A stretch of 64,000 bases of DNA, taken from the NCBI GenBank assembly GCA_900065925.1, contig LN890280.1:798451-862450 (forward strand), written 5' to 3'. Below the pieces are notes generated by a model. The model was not told the DNA's origin, did no database searches, and saw nothing but the letters and a program-made list of their open reading frames with translations. Shown here piece after piece: positions 51,855-64,000 of this stretch. The position numbers and the translations under genes are program-made. The stretch comes from Nitrosotalea devaniterrae (lineage in GTDB: Archaea; Thermoproteota; Nitrososphaeria; Nitrososphaerales; Nitrosopumilaceae). Positions within the stretch are counted from its first letter, which is position 1, and every line of letters starts with the position of its first letter.

Positions 51855-51989
51855 GCTGATGCATAATCTGTTTTAAAAATAGTTATCGAGTGGGCATGGT
51901 TTTCATATTTTGGTTATTTTCACATGTTACACTATGTCATTTGTAAAAGCTTCCTCTTCTTTAAATACAATTTTCCAGATTTTCACGTG

Positions 51990-52724
51990 ATGGATGAAGT
52001 AATTGAGGTCAGAACTGGAATTCCAGGATTTGACTCTGTATTGGCTGGAGGACTAAAACAAGGAAAGACAATATCATTGTCAGGACCACCTGGCAGCGGC
52101 AAGACTACATTTGCAATGCAATTTCTATATTCTGGTGCAAAAGATTTTGATGAGTCTGGAATTTTTGTAACACTTTCACAAAGTCCATCTGAAATAAAAA
52201 ATGACTGCAAATTGCTTGGATGGGATATTCAAAAATTAATTGATGCAGGTCAGTTGATGATTATTGATGCAAGACCTTTCAAGAAAAAAGAGGGCTTTAT
52301 TGCATTGGATGAGTCCTTTTACCATGGAGAACCGTTGCCGTTTATGCACCTTACACAACTCATACTTAGCAGCATAAAAAAAATAGGTGCAAAGCGCGTT
52401 GTCGTTGACTCGCTTACAGTTCTTACCTTACAGTATGTGAATAATTTCTATATCAGGCAGGGTCTACAAGGCTTAGTCTATGCACTAGAAGATCAAAACT
52501 GCAGGTCCATATTAATTTCAGAAGTGGATTCATATGAAAAATCTCCTGTTGAATGGTATGTATCCTCTGGAGTAATATTGCTGTGTCATGTACGAAAAGA
52601 ATATTCAATGGAGCGAACAATCCAAGTTCTCAAGATGCGAGGTTCAAAACACAGTGAACAAATTTTTCCAATAAAACTAAATGAAATGGGTATCCAGATT
52701 GTGTATCCTAAAATGATGTCGTAG
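51990..52724 (+). CDS. KaiC/RadA-like ATPase, single domain
   Basis: 244 aa from ATG 51990 (MDEVIEVRTGIPGFD); a CTTTAAATAC box at about 51960-51969 lies 25 nt upstream, supporting a leaderless start here. Walker A LSGPPGSGKTTFAMQ, Walker B RVVVDSLTVLT, then SEVDSYEKSP and the C-terminal VLKMRGSKHSEQIFPIKL typical of KaiC-like archaeal ATPases. Function unknown: signalling or a filament regulator are both possible. Convergent with the TrmB regulator. Confidence 0.8.
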   Translation: MDEVIEVRTGIPGFDSVLAGGLKQGKTISLSGPPGSGKTTFAMQFLYSGAKDFDESGIFVTLSQSPSEIKNDCKLLGWDIQKLIDAGQLMIIDARPFKKKEGFIALDESFYHGEPLPFMHLTQLILSSIKKIGAKRVVVDSLTVLTLQYVNNFYIRQGLQGLVYALEDQNCRSILISEVDSYEKSPVEWYVSSGVILLCHVRKEYSMERTIQVLKMRGSKHSEQIFPIKLNEMGIQIVYPKMMS

Positions 52725-52726
52725 GT

Positions 52727-53602
52727 TTACACGTGCACGTTCTCAGATGTGGACCAAAACAAGTCAAAAAGTGTCTTCATGGAATACACCAATGTTTCTG
52801 AATCTGTCCACATGGCATTCATTTGCTGTGATGTCTGGTTTGCATTTTTGATAAAATGAATTATTTCCCTGCCGTCTTTTATGAGAAAACAGAGATTGTC
52901 ATGTACTCCTGATGGAATCCTTCTTATCTTTGATCTGTCCATGTCATCAAAAATGTATGATGCGTTTTCAGAAATAGATGATAGTAATTTGAAATTAATC
53001 TTAGAGTCTTCAAAATTTTCAAGATGATTTGCATGGTAGAATTTTAAAAAGTCTTTTTCTGCACCTAATATGAGAAATTCACTGTTTGTACTTTTGATCA
53101 TTTCTTTTATCTTGCTGTTTATTTGGTTAGTTCCCTCAAGCATTTGGAATTTTTCTTCTCTGGTTTCCTGAACTGAATTAAATTCCGGAATGGAATCCCA
53201 CAGTTTTTTTATTTCATTTTCTTGACTCTCCAGGGTATTGACTCGTTCTTTTTCTGCATTGACAAGAACCCATATTGCTTTATTCAACGGCTCTGCTGAG
53301 AATCTAGTAGGATGCTGAAACGTTGCTGATACCAGTCCTTTGTTTTGTAATGTAGTTAGTAAGTGATATGTTTCAGTTCTTGGCATCTTTAGTGCCTTGC
53401 ATACTTCAGGAGCTGTCTTGGAGCCATATTTTCCCAAGTAGATGTAGACCTTGCTTTGGTTTGCTGTGAGTCCAAATTTTGCAAGTTCATCTTTTAGTTT
53501 GTCACATGTTATCTTTTGTTCGTATCTGACAGAGCCTGAATTTGCATCAAAGATTGATACTGAAAGTTCATCTTCTTTCATTTCCAAATGTGGGTCCATC
53601 AT
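52727..53602 (-). CDS. TrmB-family transcriptional regulator
   Basis: 291 aa. A winged helix near residues 35-100 (ELAKFGLTANQSKVYIYLGK, APEVCKALKMPRTETYHLLT, LQNKGLVSATFQHPTRFSAE) is followed by a coiled-coil linker (EKERVNTLESQENEIKKLWD) and a C-terminal sensor-like domain (FLILGAEKDFLKFYHANHLE). TrmB proteins regulate sugar and other metabolic genes in archaea; ligand unknown. A 9+9 bp dyad lies 115 nt upstream. Confidence 0.82.
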   Translation of the reverse strand: MMDPHLEMKEDELSVSIFDANSGSVRYEQKITCDKLKDELAKFGLTANQSKVYIYLGKYGSKTAPEVCKALKMPRTETYHLLTTLQNKGLVSATFQHPTRFSAEPLNKAIWVLVNAEKERVNTLESQENEIKKLWDSIPEFNSVQETREEKFQMLEGTNQINSKIKEMIKSTNSEFLILGAEKDFLKFYHANHLENFEDSKINFKLLSSISENASYIFDDMDRSKIRRIPSGVHDNLCFLIKDGREIIHFIKNANQTSQQMNAMWTDSETLVYSMKTLFDLFWSTSENVHV

Positions 53603-53839: not shown

Positions 53840-54376
53840 TCAAATCTTGATTTCATGAATTATCTCACTGGGTATGATAAAACTTGATTTGTACGCAAAT
53901 TTGCTTTTTGGTTTCCCCGTCTTTACAAAACATATCTGAAGTGTTAAATCCTGATTTAGCAGTGCAATACATCCAAGTTCTCTTTTGATGCCCTTTGAAA
54001 TCAGGTTGTCTATGGAATTTTTTATCTTTTCTATCTTTTCTATCTCAGTTTTTGTTTTTTCTAATGCCTTGAAATAAATTTCAAGCTCTCCCTTGGTTCC
54101 GATTCCATCATAAAATGAAATTGGGCCCAAGTCATGCCAGTTAGTTGTTTGATCTCGCCTCTTTACTGTTTTTTTCTTCTTTGAATCTGATACACCTTCG
54201 AGTTTTTCTTTTAGTTCTGAAATTTCTGTAGAGTCATTTGTTGTATTTTCAAACCGGATCTTCTCTCCTATTATCTCTGAATATTCTTCAGATTTTTCTT
54301 TTAGTTCCTTTAAACTATTTCCAAGATGTAATTGAAGTGCCTCAATTGAGTGAAAATGTGATATTTCTTCTTTCAA
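53840..54376 (-). CDS. Coiled-coil hypothetical protein, 178 aa
   Basis: Not recognised. Long charged coiled coil in the first half (LGNSLKELKEKSEEYSEIIG, ELKEKLEGVSDSKKKKTVKR), then NWHDLGPISFYDGIGTKGEL and another coiled coil, with a C-terminal beta-like domain (GCIALLNQDLTLQICFVKTG). Follows the gene at 54382 by 5 nt and is probably co-transcribed. Proximity to the filament locus suggests but does not show a link. Confidence 0.55.
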   Translation of the reverse strand: MKEEISHFHSIEALQLHLGNSLKELKEKSEEYSEIIGEKIRFENTTNDSTEISELKEKLEGVSDSKKKKTVKRRDQTTNWHDLGPISFYDGIGTKGELEIYFKALEKTKTEIEKIEKIKNSIDNLISKGIKRELGCIALLNQDLTLQICFVKTGKPKSKFAYKSSFIIPSEIIHEIKI

Positions 54377-54381
54377 ATTTA

Positions 54382-54876
54382 TTATACTCCTTCTACATGA
54401 AGCGATGAATCATTGACAATCATGTCTTCTGTGCTAGAGCCTGGTAATCGTTTTAATCTATGGGTAGCTTCTCGCACAAATGCAATTTTTTGATTCTTCA
54501 AAATCCTGTCGGCTCTTGTCATGCTTATCAAGTTTGGAATTACTGATTTTAGAATGTTTGATGTTTCATCCAAGCTAAGTTGGTCTAGTCTTTTTTGTTC
54601 TGATTTAAAATTAGGTTTTATGATGAGCAAATCAAGGGACGGCATGAGAATTATTCGGGTATCTTGAGACAAGCTCAATAGTCTGGGATCAACATCCATT
54701 GAAAATCCTAGGTAGTTAGTTATTGTTCTCAAAGAATTGTATAACTCATCTGTCAAGTTGGTTTTTTCATTGTCTAATTCATAAATCTGGATGGCTTCTT
54801 CTACAAGTTCATCTATTGCCTTTATTGATGATACTAGTTCGTCTTGGTCCGTATTGTCTGGCATAGACATGCACAA
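54382..54876 (-). CDS. Hypothetical protein, 164 aa
   Basis: Not recognised. MCMSMPDNTDQDELVSSIKA start, acidic N-terminal helices, then DPRLLSLSQDTRIILMPSLD and a helical C-terminal part (MTRADRILKNQKIAFVREAT). Divergent from the first pilin gene with about 170 nt between; first gene of a two-gene unit with the coiled-coil gene at 53840. Confidence 0.55.
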   Translation of the reverse strand: MCMSMPDNTDQDELVSSIKAIDELVEEAIQIYELDNEKTNLTDELYNSLRTITNYLGFSMDVDPRLLSLSQDTRIILMPSLDLLIIKPNFKSEQKRLDQLSLDETSNILKSVIPNLISMTRADRILKNQKIAFVREATHRLKRLPGSSTEDMIVNDSSLHVEGV

Positions 54877-55043: not shown

Positions 55044-55490
55044 ATGATGATTTTTTCTAGTCGTAAGGCATTAAGCTCAATTGTAACTGGAATGGTGCTT
55101 CTTGTAGCTACTGTGATTCTTGGCTCTGCAGTAGTCATGTGGTCTAATGGTAACTTTTCCATCTCAAAATCTATTACAACGGCACTTTATACTACAAATG
55201 TAAACAAGTTTACTGAACAATTGGTAATAGAAAATACGTGGTTTGGTAGTACTCCTTCAAAGTTCGTCAATGTTACACTGTATAACATTGGCTCTACAGG
55301 CATAACTGTTACAGATATACAAATTAAAAACTCGACAAATACTGTGGATCTTCCTATAGTACACGGGAATATTTTACCGCAGAAAACAAACTCTACAAAA
55401 ATTTCTTATGGGTGGAAAAGTAAAGTTCCTCTGAGCATAATAGTAACTACTGCAAAAGGTTCGGTCATTACTACTGATGTATCACCATGA
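55044..55490 (+). CDS. Type IV prepilin-like protein 1 (class III signal peptide)
   Basis: 148 aa. The N-terminus SSRKALSSIVTGMVLLVATV is an archaellin/pilin signal: basic segment, predicted cut after Ala (RKA-LSSIV) by a FlaK/PibD-type peptidase, then the helix that packs into the filament core. The exposed domain is beta-rich with N-x-S/T sites (NVTLYNIGSTGITVTDIQIK). ATG 55044 or 55047. First gene of the filament locus. Confidence 0.8.
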   Translation: MMIFSSRKALSSIVTGMVLLVATVILGSAVVMWSNGNFSISKSITTALYTTNVNKFTEQLVIENTWFGSTPSKFVNVTLYNIGSTGITVTDIQIKNSTNTVDLPIVHGNILPQKTNSTKISYGWKSKVPLSIIVTTAKGSVITTDVSP

Positions 55491-55578
55491 AAGCAAACTT
55501 GTAAAATAAAAACATGTCACATTATAATACTCACACTTGTTAATTATCACTCTTTGATATAATTGCGCATATCAACAT

Positions 55579-57030
55579 ATGAGACAGTGGGACAAAAATA
55601 ATTCGTTTAGACATTTCAATCATTACAAAAAAGGAGTATCCACTGTAATTAGTGGGGCCATACTACTCGTCGGTATTTCACTAATTGGAGTCATTGGTGT
55701 TTCATGGGCTAAAGATAATCTAAATACAAATGAAAAAATCATAGATAATACTTATTCTACAAACATAAATAAAATTAAAGAATCAATTGCACCACAACAC
55801 GAATGGTACAAGACTTCGCAAAAACAACTTAATGTCACTTTTATAAACACTGGAATTGATGGCCTCAATGTTAACGAAATTGAAATTAAAGGAATTCATT
55901 CTGTAGATTTACGAATTCCACCAATAGCGGTTCCTCCTGGTAAAACTTTTTCTAAACTGGTAAGTTATGATTGGGCAGGAGATCCGATTGACATTTCATT
56001 AATTACTGCACGTGGTTCTATTTTTACACATCATCTAGGTACTCCTGCAGATGGGCAATTGATAATTAACAAGATAGCAAAACAAGCAGATGGTAACTTT
56101 ACTTATTATGGTGATCTTGGAACTTTCTCAATTAGTACTTCTGGTAATCATAATACTGTGAACCTAGACGCAAATGGTAACATGGTACTTACAGGTACTA
56201 TCAGGGATTTTAATGGTTCAGCATGGACACATGGTGGTGCAGACCCTGATTTTGAGGCGGTTTGTCCTTGCAATTTTACCGTAGTCAAAAATATTGTTAT
56301 GCCAAATCTTGGTTCTGACGAAGAACCGGTTTACAACAACGGAACTTTTTATTCTCTTGATCATGGCTATAAATGGTTTAACCAATGGTTTCATGATAAT
56401 TCAACTCTTAATGTAAAAAAACAATTGAATGTTACACTGATTGAACAAGGCACCAATCCACAAACGTGGAAATATGACAATCAAGCATTCTTTCCTATAG
56501 ATAATCAATTATTTGGAAACAGTGGCAATGATGCACAAAATCCTCCAAAACCACATAATTTTGGATTCACTTATGAGATTCACAGTTCATTTACCTATCA
56601 GGGTGGCGAAACTTTTGACTTTGCAGGAGATGACGATGTATGGGTCTTTATCAACAAAAAACTTGCTATGGATTTAGGAGGAGTTCATTCAACAGCTACT
56701 GGCACAATAAATCTGGATGCCCAAGCTAATGCTCTTGGAATCACACGAGGAAATGTATACTCATTTGACTTTTTTTATGCAGAGCGTCATACGACAGGTT
56801 CTGACATGAAGATTACCACTTCCATACAGCTTGGAAATCCCGGAACAGGAAAGTCAGGTGTATTTTTTGTAGATCCTGGAGTGTATACTGTAGGTGAAAC
56901 CCCTGCGCCTGGGTGGACACTACAAGGTGTAACATGTGACAATACATACTTCCAACCCAATGCTACAAAAGTTACAGTAACAGTACCTAAAGGAGTAACT
57001 ACCTGCACTTTTACAAATTTCCATAATTAA
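55579..57030 (+). CDS. Prepilin-like protein with fibro-slime domain
   Basis: 483 aa. Class III signal HYKKGVSTVISGAILLVGIS (cut probably after Gly19), then a pilin-like stalk of about 130 residues similar in plan to the first pilin. Residues about 280-425 show a fibro-slime/PA14-like domain: FFPIDNQLFGNSGNDAQNPP, FDFAGDDDVWVFINKKLAMD, LGGVHSTATGTINLDAQANA and FDFFYAERHTTGSDMKI. The C-terminal 60 residues (PAPGWTLQGVTCDN, VTVPKGVTTCTFTNF) resemble a prealbumin-like fold. An adhesive tip or minor pilin is likely. Confidence 0.78.
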   Translation: MRQWDKNNSFRHFNHYKKGVSTVISGAILLVGISLIGVIGVSWAKDNLNTNEKIIDNTYSTNINKIKESIAPQHEWYKTSQKQLNVTFINTGIDGLNVNEIEIKGIHSVDLRIPPIAVPPGKTFSKLVSYDWAGDPIDISLITARGSIFTHHLGTPADGQLIINKIAKQADGNFTYYGDLGTFSISTSGNHNTVNLDANGNMVLTGTIRDFNGSAWTHGGADPDFEAVCPCNFTVVKNIVMPNLGSDEEPVYNNGTFYSLDHGYKWFNQWFHDNSTLNVKKQLNVTLIEQGTNPQTWKYDNQAFFPIDNQLFGNSGNDAQNPPKPHNFGFTYEIHSSFTYQGGETFDFAGDDDVWVFINKKLAMDLGGVHSTATGTINLDAQANALGITRGNVYSFDFFYAERHTTGSDMKITTSIQLGNPGTGKSGVFFVDPGVYTVGETPAPGWTLQGVTCDNTYFQPNATKVTVTVPKGVTTCTFTNFHN

Positions 57031-57188
57031 CTCATAAAGTAATGTTATTTGTAATTATTTTATGTGACACCCAGAATCATTTATTGAAGATTAAAACAAT
57101 TTTTATTGTATGATGTTTAAAGTAATGTTTTCAAATATCAATACAGATTATGGTGATCTAACTTGTATCTTTTACACAGATGATTGTC

Positions 57189-58388
57189 ATGAATAGAAAA
57201 GGTATCAGCACAGTAGTAGGTGCTGTCTTTTTTATCATAATCTTTACCACCGCAGTAACATTTGTTACTTATGATATGAATCTGTTGAATAATTTTACTA
57301 GTGCATTTGTAACAAAAAGTCAAGCCGATGCAGATGCAAATCATGAGGAATTTTCAATAACCAAAGTAACAATTGATAACAATAAATTCAATATTACTGT
57401 TCAAAACTCTGGAAGTATTCCTGTAAGCATCAATAGATTATGGGTGCAGAATAAATCTGATATTACTTGGGGTACTTCAAAATATGATGTTAACCAAGTT
57501 GTATATCCTGGCAATTCTCTTTCTAAAATAGGACAAAGCATACCACTTTATGCTAAACCTACTCAGGGGTATGATCTTAAACTAGTCACAATGCGTGGAA
57601 ATATCAAGGAATTTTTTGTAAACTCTGCAAGTCAAGCCCCGGTATATTTACAATTATTTGCATTGCCAAATTCTGGACCTAATAATTTCAATACTACCTT
57701 ACTTCTTGGTGTCACAAATAATATGACAAATGGTGGTGCACTCTCAAACATCCAAGCAAATATTGTTGCCAAAAATGTCACAGGCTTTGGTAAAACTACT
57801 CTAATTTCAGGCCCTACTCCAACTTCGTACCCTCTTTTGAATAATGGTGATGTGACGTTTTTCAAGTGGGATTATAAAATTAATGGTACTAGTGGCTATA
57901 AAGTAAATTTCCAAGCGTCACTTCAAAACGGATATCTCTATAACAATGCCTCACAAAATGTTGTAGTAAATACTGTTGTAAAACCTCAGATTAATTTCAC
58001 AAATCCTGTAAATCCAGCCAACGAAACTAACGGAATTGGTCACATGAGTAATTTGTTAGCTACGATAACTCCTCAAGTTACCGGCAGAATTGAAATTACT
58101 GTTTCAGGATTTACGTTTCATACTGCAAAAAATGGTACATGTAATACAGATATTAGGATAGGCACATCGTTAATTGCTCCACAAGGCATATTGGGTAATA
58201 CCAAGGTTGGTGTTTCAATTAATAGCACGAGTCCTACTGCTAATGCAAAGATTCCATTTGCAAATACTGTTCAAATTTCTGGACTTGGTATTGGAACAAA
58301 GGAATATGTCCAAATAGGTAAACAAGCAGGTGGTACATCTGGTATCTGCGCTTGGAGAAATCTCAATATATCTGTGAAAGAAATATGA
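57189..58388 (+). CDS. Large prepilin-like surface protein
   Basis: 399 aa from ATG 57189 (MNRKGISTVVGAVFFIIIFT); ATG 57180 is possible. Class III signal with predicted cut RKG-ISTVV and a hydrophobic filament helix. The exposed part has beta-sandwich-like repeats and many N-x-S/T sites (NFNTTLLLGVTNNMTNGGAL, VQISGLGIGTKEYVQIGKQA). One Cys pair near the C-terminus (NGTCNTDIR and GTSGICAWR). Probably another filament or cell-surface subunit. Confidence 0.75.
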   Translation: MNRKGISTVVGAVFFIIIFTTAVTFVTYDMNLLNNFTSAFVTKSQADADANHEEFSITKVTIDNNKFNITVQNSGSIPVSINRLWVQNKSDITWGTSKYDVNQVVYPGNSLSKIGQSIPLYAKPTQGYDLKLVTMRGNIKEFFVNSASQAPVYLQLFALPNSGPNNFNTTLLLGVTNNMTNGGALSNIQANIVAKNVTGFGKTTLISGPTPTSYPLLNNGDVTFFKWDYKINGTSGYKVNFQASLQNGYLYNNASQNVVVNTVVKPQINFTNPVNPANETNGIGHMSNLLATITPQVTGRIEITVSGFTFHTAKNGTCNTDIRIGTSLIAPQGILGNTKVGVSINSTSPTANAKIPFANTVQISGLGIGTKEYVQIGKQAGGTSGICAWRNLNISVKEI

Positions 58389-58465
58389 TTGAACAAAAAT
58401 TGTAGTGATAATTAAAAAATTGTAACGATGAGAATTTTTCTTAAACTTTAGTATTATCCAATCAT

Positions 58466-58975
58466 TTACACGTGTTGTTCTATGATTTGTTCTTGATCTA
58501 GTGGTGATGTGAGTTCAACTTGTGTGTGCAATTCACTTTGCTTAGAAAATCCGTCTACTACGTCGACATTATCTGATTCATGCAATGTTTCGGATATGCT
58601 CTTTTCTACCTGTGGGACATACGACATTTGTGATAGTCTATACGCGGGACATGGTATTTGCATACTCTTTGACATGATAAAAAATAACGGAAAGATCTCT
58701 TGGTATATCAAATTTAAAACCACTGGTATGTTTTTCTCATCTGGACTTAGTTGCTTTGATATCTCATTCTGGTCTCCATGGAGTGTAGCCATTCCTTCTA
58801 CAGTTATTTTGGCATTTGTGGGGTTTGACAAGAGAATTAGTCTATATTTTAGTATAATTTCAGAATCTCTATTTTCCACTTCATCAAGTGATGCCTCTAT
58901 GTTGTATTTTACAAAACCCTGTTCCTTTTTTAACTTTGAAAATGTTACTGAGTTCAATTCTATTTTTAGATTCAT
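58466..58975 (-). CDS. Hypothetical protein, possibly SecB-like fold, 169 aa
   Basis: Not firmly recognised. MNLKIELNSVTFSKLKKEQG, then alternating strands (ILKYRLILLSNPTNAKITVE) and the helix NLIYQEIFPLFFIMSKSMQI before PCPAYRLSQMSYV. The strand pattern and the FPL..(helix)..P motif are reminiscent of SecB-like export chaperones, which would suit its location among secreted filament genes, but sequence similarity is weak. Opposite strand to all neighbours. Confidence 0.45.
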   Translation of the reverse strand: MNLKIELNSVTFSKLKKEQGFVKYNIEASLDEVENRDSEIILKYRLILLSNPTNAKITVEGMATLHGDQNEISKQLSPDEKNIPVVLNLIYQEIFPLFFIMSKSMQIPCPAYRLSQMSYVPQVEKSISETLHESDNVDVVDGFSKQSELHTQVELTSPLDQEQIIEQHV

Positions 58976-59067
58976 AGATGTAAGAAAATATTATGAAACT
59001 TAACCCCCTGTCTGTAGTATGATGATACATGTCATGTGTTTTAGTATGCTTGAGATAATTCAAACAT

Positions 59068-60078
59068 GTGAGTATCAAAAATCCGCCTGATCAACGGATG
59101 AAGGAAGTCATAAATTCTAAGATTCACGATGAAAATTTCACCCTGAATATTCATGTTTCTACGTTAAAAAAAAGTACTCATGCTCTGTCTAAAAATTATG
59201 ATATAAAAAAATATCTTGATCCAGAAAAGTTTTCATTTTCACCTGAGATTTCCGAACTCATACCTAGAGATACTCCTCCTTATCTTGATAATGGAGAAAA
59301 ATATGTAGAACGAATTGCTAGAGCCTTATCATTTTTCAAACAATGTGCACTTATTGGGCCAAGCGGTACTGGGAAAACACATATTGTATATCTAATAGCC
59401 GAACTTGCTGGTCTTCCAATATGGGAGATTAACTGTGGCTTACAAACATCGGTTTTTGATCTTTTTGGAAGATATGTTGGTCTTGGAAAAGAAAACTGGA
59501 TTGATGGACTGATAACATCCTGGAGTAGACATGGTGGAATACTGTATCTTGATGAGGCAAACATGATGAAGCAGGATATTGCTACCAGACTGAATCCTAT
59601 TTTGGATCAACGGGGTCACATGGTTCTGACAGAAAAAGATAATGAAATAATTCAACGTCATAAATATGCGTTTTTAATAATCAGTATGAACCCCGTCTCT
59701 TCTGAATTTGCCGGCACTAAGCCAATAAACGCAGCAATGAGAAGAAGAATGAGTGTCTGGCTAAACTTTGACTATATGAGTGTGGGTTCAAAGATTGACG
59801 AAAAAGAAGTGGATCTTTTGATTAAAAAAACTAATGGCTTGAGCAGACAAGATGCTGAAATAATAGTTAGAGTGGGTGCAGATCTACGAAAACAATACAA
59901 GTCTGGAGATCTTCCCTATGGTCCTTCTATAGGGGATCTCTTAAACTGGGCATTATTGATTTCTGATGGTGCCTCATTAAAAGATGCAGCAGAAGAAACC
60001 ATAATCTCTCTTACTAGTGACGATGTTGAAGTACAAGGAATGGTAAGAAGAATAATTTGTAAAATAGCTGGAATCTGA
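59068..60078 (+). CDS. MoxR-type AAA+ ATPase
   Basis: 336 aa, GTG start. Walker A IGPSGTGKTHIVYL (residues 97-104), Walker B GGILYLDEANMMKQD (158-164), sensor 1 FLIISMNPVSSEF and the arginine-finger region NAAMRRRMSVWLNFDY. MoxR proteins with a partner VWA protein act as metal-insertion or chaperone-like remodelling pairs (CbbQO, NorQD type). Its TGA overlaps the next ATG (TGATG), so the two are translationally coupled. Confidence 0.88.
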   Translation: MSIKNPPDQRMKEVINSKIHDENFTLNIHVSTLKKSTHALSKNYDIKKYLDPEKFSFSPEISELIPRDTPPYLDNGEKYVERIARALSFFKQCALIGPSGTGKTHIVYLIAELAGLPIWEINCGLQTSVFDLFGRYVGLGKENWIDGLITSWSRHGGILYLDEANMMKQDIATRLNPILDQRGHMVLTEKDNEIIQRHKYAFLIISMNPVSSEFAGTKPINAAMRRRMSVWLNFDYMSVGSKIDEKEVDLLIKKTNGLSRQDAEIIVRVGADLRKQYKSGDLPYGPSIGDLLNWALLISDGASLKDAAEETIISLTSDDVEVQGMVRRIICKIAGI

Positions 60079-61631
60079 TGAAAGAAAAAGAATCCAGTTT
60101 TTTAGGCTTGGCAGAAAATATTTTCTACAACTTTTCTCAGATAAAACCTGGCAGTCTAAATCTTGTCTTCTCAAAAAGAACGATATTTCCAGTGATAAAA
60201 TATGATTCTGAATTAGAAATCATCATCCCATTGCCACGAAAACAGAATGGCAAATATTTGTTTGAAGGTATGTTATATGATGATAATTTCAATGAAAGAC
60301 AAAACCTTTGGTGTCTGTTTCTAGCCACGATTTATCATCTTGCAGCTCATGCTTGCGTTTCAGGATATTCTATATATGATTCTTGGAAAAGATCTAAAAC
60401 CGAAGATATTTGCTTACGTGTAATCGATTACATTGAAGATATGTTTGTTGAACAATATATTTCTCATACTGATTATGAGATATGGAAAAGTATGAAAAAT
60501 ATTGAGAATGAACTCATGTCGAAAAATCAAAAAAATTCTTCTAAATCCTTTAATGTCGAACATCCTAAAATTTTCGGCTTGTCTGATAAAGAAAAAATCG
60601 CAAAAATACGAACAAATGTGATGCACAAACAAAATGATGTCATTTTATTTGCAAATTTACTTTATAAAAATAGGGAATTGTTGTCTAGGGAAATCATGCC
60701 TTATTATGAAAGACACGATGTTCAACAAATGCTGGAAACTGGACAAAAAAGTCCAGATTTTAAACCAAATGGCGTATTTCAAGAAAACACGGTGAAACTT
60801 GATGATCTTTGGTTAAAAGATGCACAATTAAAATTAAAAATACTTGGAAAATATAAAAAGAATTTAAAAGATCTTAATTTTGATTCAATTGTAGTTCCAC
60901 GAGGAAATTTTTATAATTTTTTGCAAATTAAAGAAAAAATATCTCCATTATTGAGAAAGATTCATCAACAGATGCGAATGGTGGGAAATAATTTCGATGA
61001 TCCTAAAACTGATGAACGTGGTTATCTGAACATGCAAATGGTTATCCAATCTATGGCATCCGAATCGCAATCTGTTGATGTTTTTGAGCGTGATGAAATT
61101 CGACGAGTTGAGGAAGCATGGGTAATTTTAATAGACAATAGTGCAAGTATGGGTTTACGATTTGAACAAATAAAAGAATTTACTGTTTGTATCGCAGAAG
61201 CAGCAAATGATCTAACAGGAAAATCTGATGCATGGGCTTTATTCAGTTTTGATAATAATTTTAAAATTTTAAAAGATTTTGAAGAAAGATATGATCACGA
61301 AGTACAAGCACGTATCGGTTCATTAAAAAATAATGGTTTGTCATTATTACCAGATGCGATAGAATTAGCACGTAGGGTGCTATTGAATGATGCCCGCGAG
61401 AGAAAATATATTTTTCTTATCACTGACGGGCATCCATCTGGTTATGAAAAAATAAATCATCATCTTGTTAAAATTACAAAAAAACTTGATGCTTCTGGTG
61501 TGTCATTAATTGCTATTGGTGTATCAAAATCCACTTCGAAGCATTTTAGACATAATGTACGCGGATCATCTAATCTTGGACAACTTGTAGCCAAATTCAT
61601 TACTGCCTACAAGACTGTTTCATCAGACTAG
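60078..61631 (+). CDS. VWA-domain partner of the MoxR ATPase
   Basis: 517 aa. The C-terminal von Willebrand A domain has a complete MIDAS: EAWVILIDNSASMGLRFEQI (Asp353, Ser355, Ser357), a Thr-like middle (LSLLPDAIELARRV) and ITDGHPSGYEKINHH. The N-terminal 340 residues are helical, resembling CbbO/NorD/CoxE-type proteins with YHLAAHACVSGY. No signal peptide or membrane helix, so it acts in the cytoplasm with the AAA+ partner. Target unknown. Confidence 0.85.
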   Translation: MKEKESSFLGLAENIFYNFSQIKPGSLNLVFSKRTIFPVIKYDSELEIIIPLPRKQNGKYLFEGMLYDDNFNERQNLWCLFLATIYHLAAHACVSGYSIYDSWKRSKTEDICLRVIDYIEDMFVEQYISHTDYEIWKSMKNIENELMSKNQKNSSKSFNVEHPKIFGLSDKEKIAKIRTNVMHKQNDVILFANLLYKNRELLSREIMPYYERHDVQQMLETGQKSPDFKPNGVFQENTVKLDDLWLKDAQLKLKILGKYKKNLKDLNFDSIVVPRGNFYNFLQIKEKISPLLRKIHQQMRMVGNNFDDPKTDERGYLNMQMVIQSMASESQSVDVFERDEIRRVEEAWVILIDNSASMGLRFEQIKEFTVCIAEAANDLTGKSDAWALFSFDNNFKILKDFEERYDHEVQARIGSLKNNGLSLLPDAIELARRVLLNDARERKYIFLITDGHPSGYEKINHHLVKITKKLDASGVSLIAIGVSKSTSKHFRHNVRGSSNLGQLVAKFITAYKTVSSD

Positions 61632-61688
61632 GTGTAAGTCAAAATTACATGCTAGGTGAGATATTCTTCATTACTATACTTGCTAATA

Positions 61689-62342
61689 ATGAATATGTTC
61701 CTTAGAACAAAGAACAGAAAGGCAATCAGTGCCGTGCTTACTACACTGATCATCTTGGTTGCATCAGTAGTTCTTGGAACGGGTGTTGTACTGTATGGTA
61801 CTAGCCTCTTCCAGACAGGCGCCCAATCCTCGGGCATAGCAGTTCAAGGTAGTCATGTGTGGGTAAACTCTACGAGTTCGCCAACATATGTGTGGGGAGC
61901 TGCAGAGATTAGAAATAGTGGTGACAAGATTCTGTCTGTAGACCAGATTAATGTACGCGGTACTCAGGTACCATTTGCAAGCTGGTACTATAGCAATAAT
62001 CAAACAGCCGTTACCGCAGCAAACTTTCAATCTCAGCTAACATACACTGGAACTACAGGTACTGGACTCATGAAGAGCTTTGCCTCGGGAGCACCAACTG
62101 GATGTACAACTGCCACCACTCAATTCTATATCAACGAATTTGGTTTGGGTAGTAGCAATCCTACAGTGTGTTTCACGCAAGCATCTGGTCCAATTTCATT
62201 GAAGCCAGGTGATAGAGCCATAGTGTATTTCCAAGTGCCAAATGGCATATTGAGTACAGTGGATGCAGGTTCCCAAAGTAGTGTTGCAGTATATGCTGGT
62301 AGTGTAGGTGCACCGCAGTCTGTTACTGTAGAAAGCAAATAG
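61689..62342 (+). CDS. Archaellin/type IV pilin-like protein 4
   Basis: 217 aa from ATG 61689 (MNMFLRTKNRKAISAVLTTL); GTG 61656 gives an implausible extension. Class III signal with predicted cut RKA-ISAVL, followed by the typical hydrophobic helix LIILVASVVLGTGVVLYGTS. Exposed domain beta-rich with two Cys (PTGCTTATTQ, PTVCFTQASG) and ends SVGAPQSVTVESK, archaellin-like. Candidate main filament subunit. A T-rich tract follows before the ATPase. Confidence 0.8.
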   Translation: MNMFLRTKNRKAISAVLTTLIILVASVVLGTGVVLYGTSLFQTGAQSSGIAVQGSHVWVNSTSSPTYVWGAAEIRNSGDKILSVDQINVRGTQVPFASWYYSNNQTAVTAANFQSQLTYTGTTGTGLMKSFASGAPTGCTTATTQFYINEFGLGSSNPTVCFTQASGPISLKPGDRAIVYFQVPNGILSTVDAGSQSSVAVYAGSVGAPQSVTVESK

Positions 62343-62363
62343 AGGGGGTTTAAAAAAATGCCC

Positions 62364-62387
62364 AACTTCTCTTCTTTTTTATTTTTG
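62364..62387 (+). terminator. Pyrimidine/T-rich tract after the pilin
   Basis: CTTCTCTTCTTTTTTATTTT lies about 22 nt after the pilin stop and just before the ATPase ATG. Archaeal termination is favoured at such runs; partial read-through would allow much pilin and little ATPase. Assigned from composition and position. Confidence 0.4.
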
Positions 62388-62398
62388 GTGACTAGCAA

Positions 62399-63949
62399 AT
62401 GAAAGACAGATCAAAAAAATCTCAAGAAATTGAAACTTTTCTGGAACGTCAAATAATTGATGAAGGTCAAAGTCAGATTCCATTTGGTTATGAAATTGTA
62501 AAAAAATATCCATTACAGCCTCCATTTAGTTATGCGAATATATTGTATAATAAAGAAAAATCCACATATCTTTATTTTGTAGATGAATTACGTCTAAACA
62601 GGGAAGACACAACAATCTTTCAAACACTCTACAAACTCATTGAAGAAAGTCTTGAATCTCCATCAAAATCTGATGGCAGTCAAAATTTTGAAGATCATTT
62701 GAATAAAATCCTCAAGGATAATGAAAAGATGTTTCTAAATCACTCTAGTATGAGTAGTATGGAGAAGGTGAAATATTATTTGAAACGCGATATTGTGGGA
62801 TTTGGCCTGATAGATCCAATAATGCATGATGTAAATATTGAGGATGTAAGCTGCAGTGGAACTGACAAACCCATTTTCATATGGCATCGAAATTATGACA
62901 GCATCCCAACAAATATCCAGTATGCATCAAATGAACAATTAAATTCATTTGTTTCTAGAATTGTGTTTCGAGCTGGAAAACATATCAGTACTGCATTTCC
63001 AATATCGGATTTGGCATTACAAGGAAATCATAGAATCTCAGTTCTATATCAAAAGGAAGTAACTCCCAAAGGAACTAGTTTTACAATACGAAAATTCAGA
63101 GAAGATCCTTATACTGTAATTGACCTGATAAAATTTGGAACAATAAGCATTTCAATTGCAGCATATTTGTGGATGCTGGTAGAAGCAAAACAGTCTTTTA
63201 TAATAATAGGCTCAACTGGAAGTGGAAAGACTACAATACTTAACGCAATCACGGGTCTTGTTCACCCTGACTATAAAATTTTCTCAGTAGAAGATGTTGC
63301 AGAAATCAACATCAATCATGAAAACTGGTTCACTCTGGTTTCAAGAAGTGGGTTTGGTTTGAGTGGGGAAGGTGAAATAGGAATGTATGATTTGATAAAG
63401 GCCGGAGTACGACATAGGCCTGACTATATTGTAGTGGGAGAAATCAGAGGCTCTGAGGCGTATGTCATGTTTCAAGCCATGGCTACAGGTCACGGTGGTT
63501 TGTGTACCATGCACGCAGATGGTCTTGAATCTGCAATAAAGAGATTGCAACAAAAACCAATGGATATTCCGCCTGCATATATTTCTCTAATGAACTGCGC
63601 CGTAGTCATAAAGAGAGTAAAAGAAAGTTCTACGGGCCAGAGCAGCAGAAGAGCAATTGCGGTATCAGAAATAATATCTTCCAGTAATTCACATGCAGCT
63701 TTTTCATGGAACCCAAAAACTGATAATTTTGATGATAATCTAAAAGATAGCAATCTGTTCAAAAAAATGGCAGATGCGTCAGGTCGTGATCTAAACGAAC
63801 TGCTTGAGGAACATGAAAAAAGAATCATGATTCTCAAATGGATGCTTGAAAATGATATTAGAAATTATAGAAAAGTAGCTGAAGTGGTTGGAAAATATTA
63901 TCGAGATCCCGAATCATTATTACAAAAAATAGAATTAGGAAATGTCTAA
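62399..63949 (+). CDS. Type II/IV secretion ATPase (PilT/ArlI family)
   Basis: 516 aa. Walker A IIIGSTGSGKTTILN (271-278), Asp box FSVEDVAEININHE, Walker B PDYIVVGEIRGSEAYVMFQA (343-350) and His box GHGGLCTMHADG (about 365-374). The N-terminal domain (DIVGFGLIDPIMHDVNIEDV) is the ring-forming part. Powers filament assembly at the membrane. Similar to ArlI/FlaI and archaeal PilT-like ATPases; which filament cannot be decided without ArlG/F/H, absent here. Confidence 0.92.
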   Translation: MKDRSKKSQEIETFLERQIIDEGQSQIPFGYEIVKKYPLQPPFSYANILYNKEKSTYLYFVDELRLNREDTTIFQTLYKLIEESLESPSKSDGSQNFEDHLNKILKDNEKMFLNHSSMSSMEKVKYYLKRDIVGFGLIDPIMHDVNIEDVSCSGTDKPIFIWHRNYDSIPTNIQYASNEQLNSFVSRIVFRAGKHISTAFPISDLALQGNHRISVLYQKEVTPKGTSFTIRKFREDPYTVIDLIKFGTISISIAAYLWMLVEAKQSFIIIGSTGSGKTTILNAITGLVHPDYKIFSVEDVAEININHENWFTLVSRSGFGLSGEGEIGMYDLIKAGVRHRPDYIVVGEIRGSEAYVMFQAMATGHGGLCTMHADGLESAIKRLQQKPMDIPPAYISLMNCAVVIKRVKESSTGQSSRRAIAVSEIISSSNSHAAFSWNPKTDNFDDNLKDSNLFKKMADASGRDLNELLEEHEKRIMILKWMLENDIRNYRKVAEVVGKYYRDPESLLQKIELGNV

Positions 63950-64000
63950 ATGATTTCACTAAAAAAACTTGATCAGGCAGATTACGAAAAAAAACAAAAT
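63950..64000 (+). CDS. Start of next gene, probably the ArlJ/TadC-type platform protein (partial)
   Basis: Seventeen codons are visible (MISLKKLDQADYEKKQN), starting 1 nt after the ATPase stop. The rest lies beyond the right edge. A PilC/ArlJ membrane platform is the usual next gene, but identity is inferred from position only. Confidence 0.4.
   Translation, partial: MISLKKLDQADYEKKQN

Follow-up and report, generated by a model that had tools for sequence, protein, structure and literature searches.

A Nitrosotalea devaniterrae type IV pilus locus with a predicted SecB-fold protein and a MoxR-VWA gene pair

Pairs of a MoxR-type AAA+ ATPase and a VWA-domain protein are best known for activating metalloenzymes and other complexes. 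What does such a pair do inside a type IV pilus locus of the archaeon Nitrosotalea devaniterrae? The locus occupies positions 55044–63949 of a stretch of 64,000 nucleotides (the window), which corresponds to bases 798451–862450 of a single contig of 1.805 Mb. An earlier note, made from the letters of the window, reported four class III prepilins and a secretion ATPase around a translationally coupled AAA+/VWA pair, and proposed for the pair a role in filament assembly, subunit activation or adhesin maturation. A list of open reading frames (ORFs) and profile scans confirm this content, with the ORFs, signals and Pfam matches in place: four class III prepilins, a PilB-like ATPase and a MoxR (CbbQ-type)-VWA pair. 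Here we examine by computation the gene content and order, co-occurrence, predicted folds, active-site residues and predicted membrane segments of the system. On balance, we consider it probable that the locus encodes a type IV pilus other than the archaellum, with its own cytoplasmic chaperone cassette of a SecB-like protein and a NorQD-like MoxR-VWA pair, and that this cassette assembles or activates the pilus machine.

The AAA+ gene, here called Q (59068–60078, plus strand; AAA_5 3.1e-19, CbbQ_C 1.6e-11), and the VWA gene O (60078–61631, plus strand; VWA 8.1e-14) overlap by one base, base 60078 being common to the stop of Q and the start of O. They are followed by the fourth prepilin, Pil4 (61656–62342, plus strand; signal NRKA/ISA), and by the pilus assembly ATPase (62399–63949, plus strand; T2SSE 2.5e-35). 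From contig base 862400 the same strand continues past the window with a TadC-like platform (T2SSF), an immunoglobulin-like (Ig-like) surface protein of 810 amino acids with hydrophobic segments at both ends (IgS), and a prepilin peptidase (Arc_PepC_II). The run from Q through the Ig-like gene is co-directional, and no gap in it exceeds 57 bases. The earlier note overlooked a minus-strand gene between the pilins and the Q–O pair, h169 (58466–58975), as well as conserved upstream genes, namely h164 (54382–54876, minus strand), h178 (53840–54376, minus strand), a TrmB-family regulator (52727–53602, minus strand; Pfam TrmB 4.3e-13) and a KaiC-family ATPase (51924–52724, plus strand; Pfam KaiC 2.3e-59).

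Is the filament an archaellum? Class III prepilins, a PilB-type ATPase, a TadC-like platform and a prepilin peptidase are the hallmarks of an archaeal type IV pilus, and all are present. The archaellum reading was rejected on three grounds: the pilus ATPase reaches 366.8 bits against an ArlI cut-off of 550, its TadC 27.8 bits against an ArlJ cut-off of 400, and the ATPase tree places the pilus ATPase, with full support, outside the ArlI clade. The opposite strand carries a separate archaellum operon, 7.4 kb beyond the pilus ATPase. It encodes ArlJ (594.4 bits; cut-off 400), ArlI (591.9; cut-off 550), FlaH/ArlH (262; cut-off 194) and archaellins, besides weak ArlF/ArlG and ArlX-like proteins. 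The caution of the earlier note that the locus need not be an archaellum was thus well placed. It had also held that a full archaellum operon just downstream would undo its proposal; such an operon is literally there, but it has its own ArlI and ArlJ, and the two ATPases, the only ones of their kind found by a search of the genome, are far apart in the tree. ArlJ, ArlH and weak ArlF/ArlG, which it had suggested looking for beyond 64 kb, lie in that opposite-strand operon; the pilus strand carries the TadC (below the ArlJ cut-off), the Ig-like protein and the peptidase. The pilus locus and the archaellum share ATPase and TadC/ArlJ ancestry. Judged from its sequence, the locus is a second, non-archaellum type IV pilus filament system. 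An Ups pilus or bindosome was likewise rejected, the cut-offs being missed for UpsA (30.2 versus 130 bits), UpsF (91.5 versus 400) and BasE (238.7 versus 1000). The archaellum operon (L003:12303-17568; G000:C1:874302-879567) has several archaellin genes, and a cupredoxin-like secreted protein of 335 amino acids is encoded between two of them.

The link between pair and pilus is a rediscovery of a published one. Makarova et al. (2016) described a vWA/MoxR pair, with an ATPase that they called GvpN-like, as "strongly linked" to the type IV pilus loci of Thaumarchaeota (PMC4858521), and the present locus very probably belongs to that set. They proposed regulation, and SecB is unmentioned there. 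As far as the literature searched shows, what is added here is the SecB-fold partner, the near-perfect co-occurrence across the phylum, also outside the ammonia-oxidising archaea, and the analysis of the H2i and finger elements. Four types of type IV pilus, with functions still to be elucidated, have been reported in ammonia-oxidising archaea, and a similar diversity in Bathyarchaeota (Abby et al. 2020; PMC7554672).

How closely does the pair follow the pilus? Among 200 Nitrosopumilaceae genomes, O occurs in 48, Q in 48, the cognate ATPase (59% identity or more) in 47 and all three in 44; the exceptions are mostly incomplete genomes, and Fisher's test for O with the ATPase gives 1e-38, uncorrected for ancestry. 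Two further weak VWA matches (G124 and G175; E ~1e-6) belong to another MoxR-VWA pair and were left out of the count for O; in the locus of G124 (L069), pilus genes are absent. Where contigs are long enough, the genes stand, with local rearrangements, in the order KaiC-TrmB-h178-h164-(pilins)-h169-Q-O-Pil4-ATPase-TadC-IgS-peptidase, which is found in nearly every Nitrosopumilaceae locus read, so that the comparison of gene order among ammonia-oxidising archaea suggested earlier comes out in favour of the link. Q is conserved across loci (66–96%); O, h169 and the Ig-like protein diverge fast. The set is patchy within genera, the window's own included, and its genes therefore tend to be gained or lost jointly. 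As local variants, Q is longer (428 amino acids) and inverted in L052-L056 (genus g18), with the SecB-like gene directly upstream of O, and in L042 and G097:C25 (genomes G079 and G097) a stop or a change of frame breaks it in two, the mark of either a pseudogene or an assembly error.

In a sample of 300 genomes of the phylum, the TadC profile cleanly separates one pilus, here called type A: 30 genomes score at least 602 bits, and the next score is 339. Q is strong in 30 genomes and both are present in 28, with two exceptions each way. Type-A TadC is found without an intact Q–O pair in G291, which has no Q, and in G437, which has only a fragment of Q, 9 kb away from its TadC; Q is found without type-A TadC in G098 and in G408 (89% complete). 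In G098 (L063) the ATPase and Pil4 are kept and TadC is absent, a response-regulator-like gene and others standing after the ATPase instead. The type-A ATPases, the window's among them, form one clade apart from the 'type B' and 42%-identity ATPases (tree support moderate, 86/87, with two long branches). The 42%-identity ATPases are present also in genomes that lack the Q–O pair, as are other type IV pilus ATPases (G030 type) and the archaellum. Pilus and cassette co-occur in 8 genomes though they are not close together. All 16 genomes with O outside the family have type IV pilus ATPases, which lie ~7–13 kb from O in seven and farther off or on another contig in the remainder, and Q–O is accompanied there in many cases by h169, h178, h164 and TrmB. 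The Q–O pair is thus part of a separable cassette that follows the type-A pilus even when the two are not adjacent. Conserved order together with near-perfect co-occurrence in both samples upholds the claim that the pair belongs to the pilus locus, and the cassette very likely serves the type-A pilus.

These counts also bear on the idea that the cassette is a general protein-handling or conflict system of the cytoplasm, merely co-inherited with the pilus. MoxR-vWA ternary conflict systems do exist in bacteria (PMC7159879), and outside the family about half of the genomes have the cassette away from the pilus genes. However, its presence and absence match one TadC/ATPase clade nearly one to one even when unlinked, no near-complete sampled genome has the cassette without a type-A pilus, no variable effector genes were seen, and PADLOC gives only weak generic matches for Q and none for O; we regard mere co-inheritance as very improbable. 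None of the third components of conflict systems (VMAP, iSTAND, FtsH, beta-propeller) was recognised in the locus by general scans, in which VMAP profiles were not run. A weak PADLOC match of h178 to PbeC (4.7e-6, 23 bits) perhaps reflects coiled-coil similarity. In some Bathyarchaeia, sufS/iscU-like genes are conserved neighbours of Q when the loci are read by eye; we take them as incidental.

What kind of protein is h169? Pfam gave no match for it and nothing consistent for an alignment of SecB-like sequences. In its AlphaFold2 model the core has a predicted local distance difference test score (pLDDT) mostly above 90, the top Foldseek matches are all SecB or the SecB-like chaperone Rv1957, and comparison with E. 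coli SecB gives Z 9.6 over 109 residues at 2.8 Å, the best chain outside SecB and SecB-like proteins reaching 5.6. On this model, h169 has the SecB fold. Its likeness to SecB and Rv1957 (Z 9.2–9.6) is one of fold; it differs in sharing only 9–13% identity and in the variable, often acidic C-terminal tail that follows the core in its relatives, and no toxin-antitoxin genes were recognised. One borderline membrane segment in h169 corresponds to the long helix of the SecB core. Strong relatives (at least 45 bits) occur in 31 of the 300 phylum genomes, namely all 30 with type-A TadC plus G098, which retains the cognate ATPase. Profile-profile comparison of h164, h169 and h178 revealed no relationship among them, and literature searches joining SecB with archaeal pilins returned nothing relevant. 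Weaker SecB-like candidates (21–36 bits, ~135–180 amino acids) are present apart from the cassette in other genomes of the phylum, and proteins with this fold may be more frequent in archaea than annotation suggests.

The predicted fold invites a variant of our explanation with a different client, in which hydrophobic prepilins or the large Ig-like protein would be the cargo of the SecB-like protein, to be released to the membrane by Q–O, the motor not being the client. The presence of the SecB-like gene in every genome with type-A TadC, even those in which Q is broken (G437) or absent (G291), agrees with such a holdase or targeting role. However, after correction for the KaiC/TrmB background the distance correlation of the SecB-like protein with Pil4 is low (0.29) compared with those for the ATPase and TadC (0.67 and 0.74), and archaea, to our knowledge, have no SecA; this variant is rather doubtful. 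The highest corrected correlations are those of Q with the ATPase and of the ATPase with TadC (both 0.88). They are weak evidence: all distance correlations are high through shared ancestry, and they only hint at pairings of Q with the ATPase and O with h164.

Among PDB sequences, the best single-module relative of Q is NorQ (81 bits), followed by CbbQ (73 bits) and then CobS; the CbbQ_C match (PF08406) reaches 44.7 bits (cut-off 20.6). Midasin gives the strongest E-values, but these sum many AAA modules, and per module it scores ~42 bits at best, below NorQ. The Walker A and B, sensor 1 and arginine-finger residues are conserved across 87 phylum sequences, and the H2i pore hairpin, GR[YF][VI]GLGKENW, is nearly invariant (85–87 sequences). 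Q was rejected as a strict NorQ, which has the H2i motif GRXLL/IXXXXT (PMC13036017), as GvpN (TIGR02640, 34.9 bits versus a cut-off of 266.8) and as the cobaltochelatase subunit CobS (TIGR01650, 24.6 bits versus 558.55). GvpN is a related AAA+ protein (TIGR02640 E 1.1e-8), and no gas vesicle genes are present in the locus.

In the model of O, an N-terminal domain is followed by a stretch of low confidence that contains a helix at ~304–342, and then by a VWA domain with a metal-ion-dependent adhesion site (MIDAS). The finger-equivalent, a helix-containing stretch of low pLDDT just before the VWA domain (about residues 301–345; 60978–61112, plus strand), lies within the range aligned to NorD, and VWA domain plus finger-equivalent align with NorD at Z 21.9 and with the Rea1 MIDAS domain at Z 21.5. 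The MIDAS residues D353, S355, S357, S/T422 and D450 (DxSxS...T/S...D) are conserved in 85 of 85 sequences, and G315 and Q324 of the finger-equivalent are invariant in the same number. In NorQD (Paracoccus, Jhaorihella) the finger reaches into the pore of the ring, where it touches the H2i hairpin, and client handling depends on MIDAS (PMC13036017, PMC9976466). With a MoxR AAA+ protein bearing CbbQ_C and a VWA partner with MIDAS and a finger-equivalent, Q–O looks like NorQD in most testable respects, and it probably works in the same manner; it differs in H2i, pilus neighbours and SecB-like partner, and no nitric oxide reductase gene is present. The CbbQO Rubisco activase is alike in general make-up, a CbbQ-type AAA+ protein with a VWA adaptor; the locus has no Rubisco. 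Midasin/Rea1, also a MoxR-clade AAA+ ring acting with a MIDAS VWA domain, is a single large eukaryotic polypeptide that contains several AAA modules and serves ribosome assembly, unlike the separate Q and O.

If the pair resembles NorQD, does it insert metal into a pilus component, as NorQD and CobST do? NorQ and CobS are among the closest relatives of Q, CobT_C matches occur in 14 of 30 O sequences, and O conserves H87xxxH91 (80 of 85 sequences) and D121 (E120 within the family). However, profile scans recognised no metalloprotein among the pilus genes, and metal insertion seems very unlikely. Residues 87–121 of the N-terminal domain (60336–60440) are, as a sequence pattern, reminiscent of a metal site or a degenerate zincin.

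No signal or convincing membrane segment is predicted in Q, O, h164 or h178, and a client would therefore be met in the cytoplasm. The SecB-like protein is no different in this respect, and the part of the earlier proposal concerning adhesin maturation at the surface is accordingly disfavoured, while filament assembly or activation is still the best reading. In the mechanism that we infer, Q would form a MoxR-type AAA+ ring, and O would push the finger before its VWA domain into the pore of that ring and grip the client through MIDAS and its own N-terminal domain; ATP hydrolysis would then twist O and thereby remodel the client, on the pattern of NorQD and CbbQO. Together with h164 and h178, the SecB-fold protein would hold or present the client in the cytoplasm. 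The likeliest clients would be the pilus machine at its cytoplasmic face (ATPase/TadC platform) or the prepilins before insertion, and we put the former rather than the latter at somewhat less than even odds. The cassette would be an assembly or activation factor for one pilus type. A coupling of MoxR and VWA proteins in an archaeal phage-tail assembly system has been given as a precedent (PMC7159879).

The same pair has been seen as a regulatory module, a switch on pilus expression or activity rather than an assembly chaperone, by analogy with the vWA protein ArnB (PMC4858521). The TrmB and KaiC neighbours suit this proposal, TrmB standing beside the cassette outside the family too, but the NorD-like layout of O, with finger-equivalent and N-terminal domain, does not, the SecB-fold protein suits protein handling better, and scans of the locus proteins recognised no FHA or kinase family. 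A regulatory module is, in our view, unlikely.

Several observations weigh against the assembly or activation factor that we prefer. The Q–O pair may be dispensable for the pilus, as G291 and G437 have type-A TadC without intact Q and O. The cassette and the pilus genes lie apart in about half of the genomes outside the family, a separation that the earlier note had named as damaging to its proposal; it holds for place, but those genomes still carry the cognate pilus. The co-occurrence counts are not phylogenetically independent. In H2i, the GR of the NorQ motif is kept, but the second L/I and the T are replaced by G and N. In the fold search of O the match list was taken up by the VWA domain, so that the N-terminal domain has no assigned fold, nor do h164 and h178.

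A mechanical scan for the class III signal flagged 8 patterns among the 67 non-overlapping ORFs of at least 100 amino acids in the window; the four of the locus resemble true pilin N-termini and the other four differ in form. Prepilin 1 (55044–55490, plus strand; signal SRKA/LSS) has a weak UpsA match (4e-7), and prepilin 3 (57180–58388, plus strand; NRKG/IST) has weak ArlF/UpsB matches. Between them, the prepilin at 55579–57030 (plus strand; YKKG/VST) carries PA14/fibro-slime and prealbumin-like domains (Fibro_Slime 4.7e-36, PA14 1.2e-8) and is a probable adhesive minor pilin; its close relatives are confined to a few Nitrosotalea loci (L038, L039, L040, L073), and in other loci ordinary Pil1/Pil3 pilins, often inverted, replace it. 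Pil4, the signature pilin of type A, is conserved beside the ATPase in 1–3 copies. The predicted soluble proteins h164 and h178 are both kept in the loci, and h178 stands beside Q–O in many genomes outside the family. Of the flanking genes, TrmB is a conserved neighbour and KaiC a neighbour in most Nitrosopumilaceae loci.

The near-constant joining of pilus genes with a remodelling pair and a SecB-shaped chaperone suggests a dedicated cytoplasmic assembly helper. We know of no ATP-driven pilus assembly factor of this SecB and MoxR-VWA kind in any characterised pilus. Whether ammonia-oxidising and Bathyarchaeia-type archaea have a dedicated SecB and MoxR-VWA machine, needed in the cytoplasm for remodelling the motor of one type IV pilus or its prepilins, is a question to which we lean slightly short of an affirmative answer. 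A pair that tracks one pilus type across a phylum, together with a SecB-fold protein in organisms without SecA, would make the question of the client directly testable and, if the explanation is true, would give the biogenesis of archaeal type IV pili a chaperone step in the cytoplasm.

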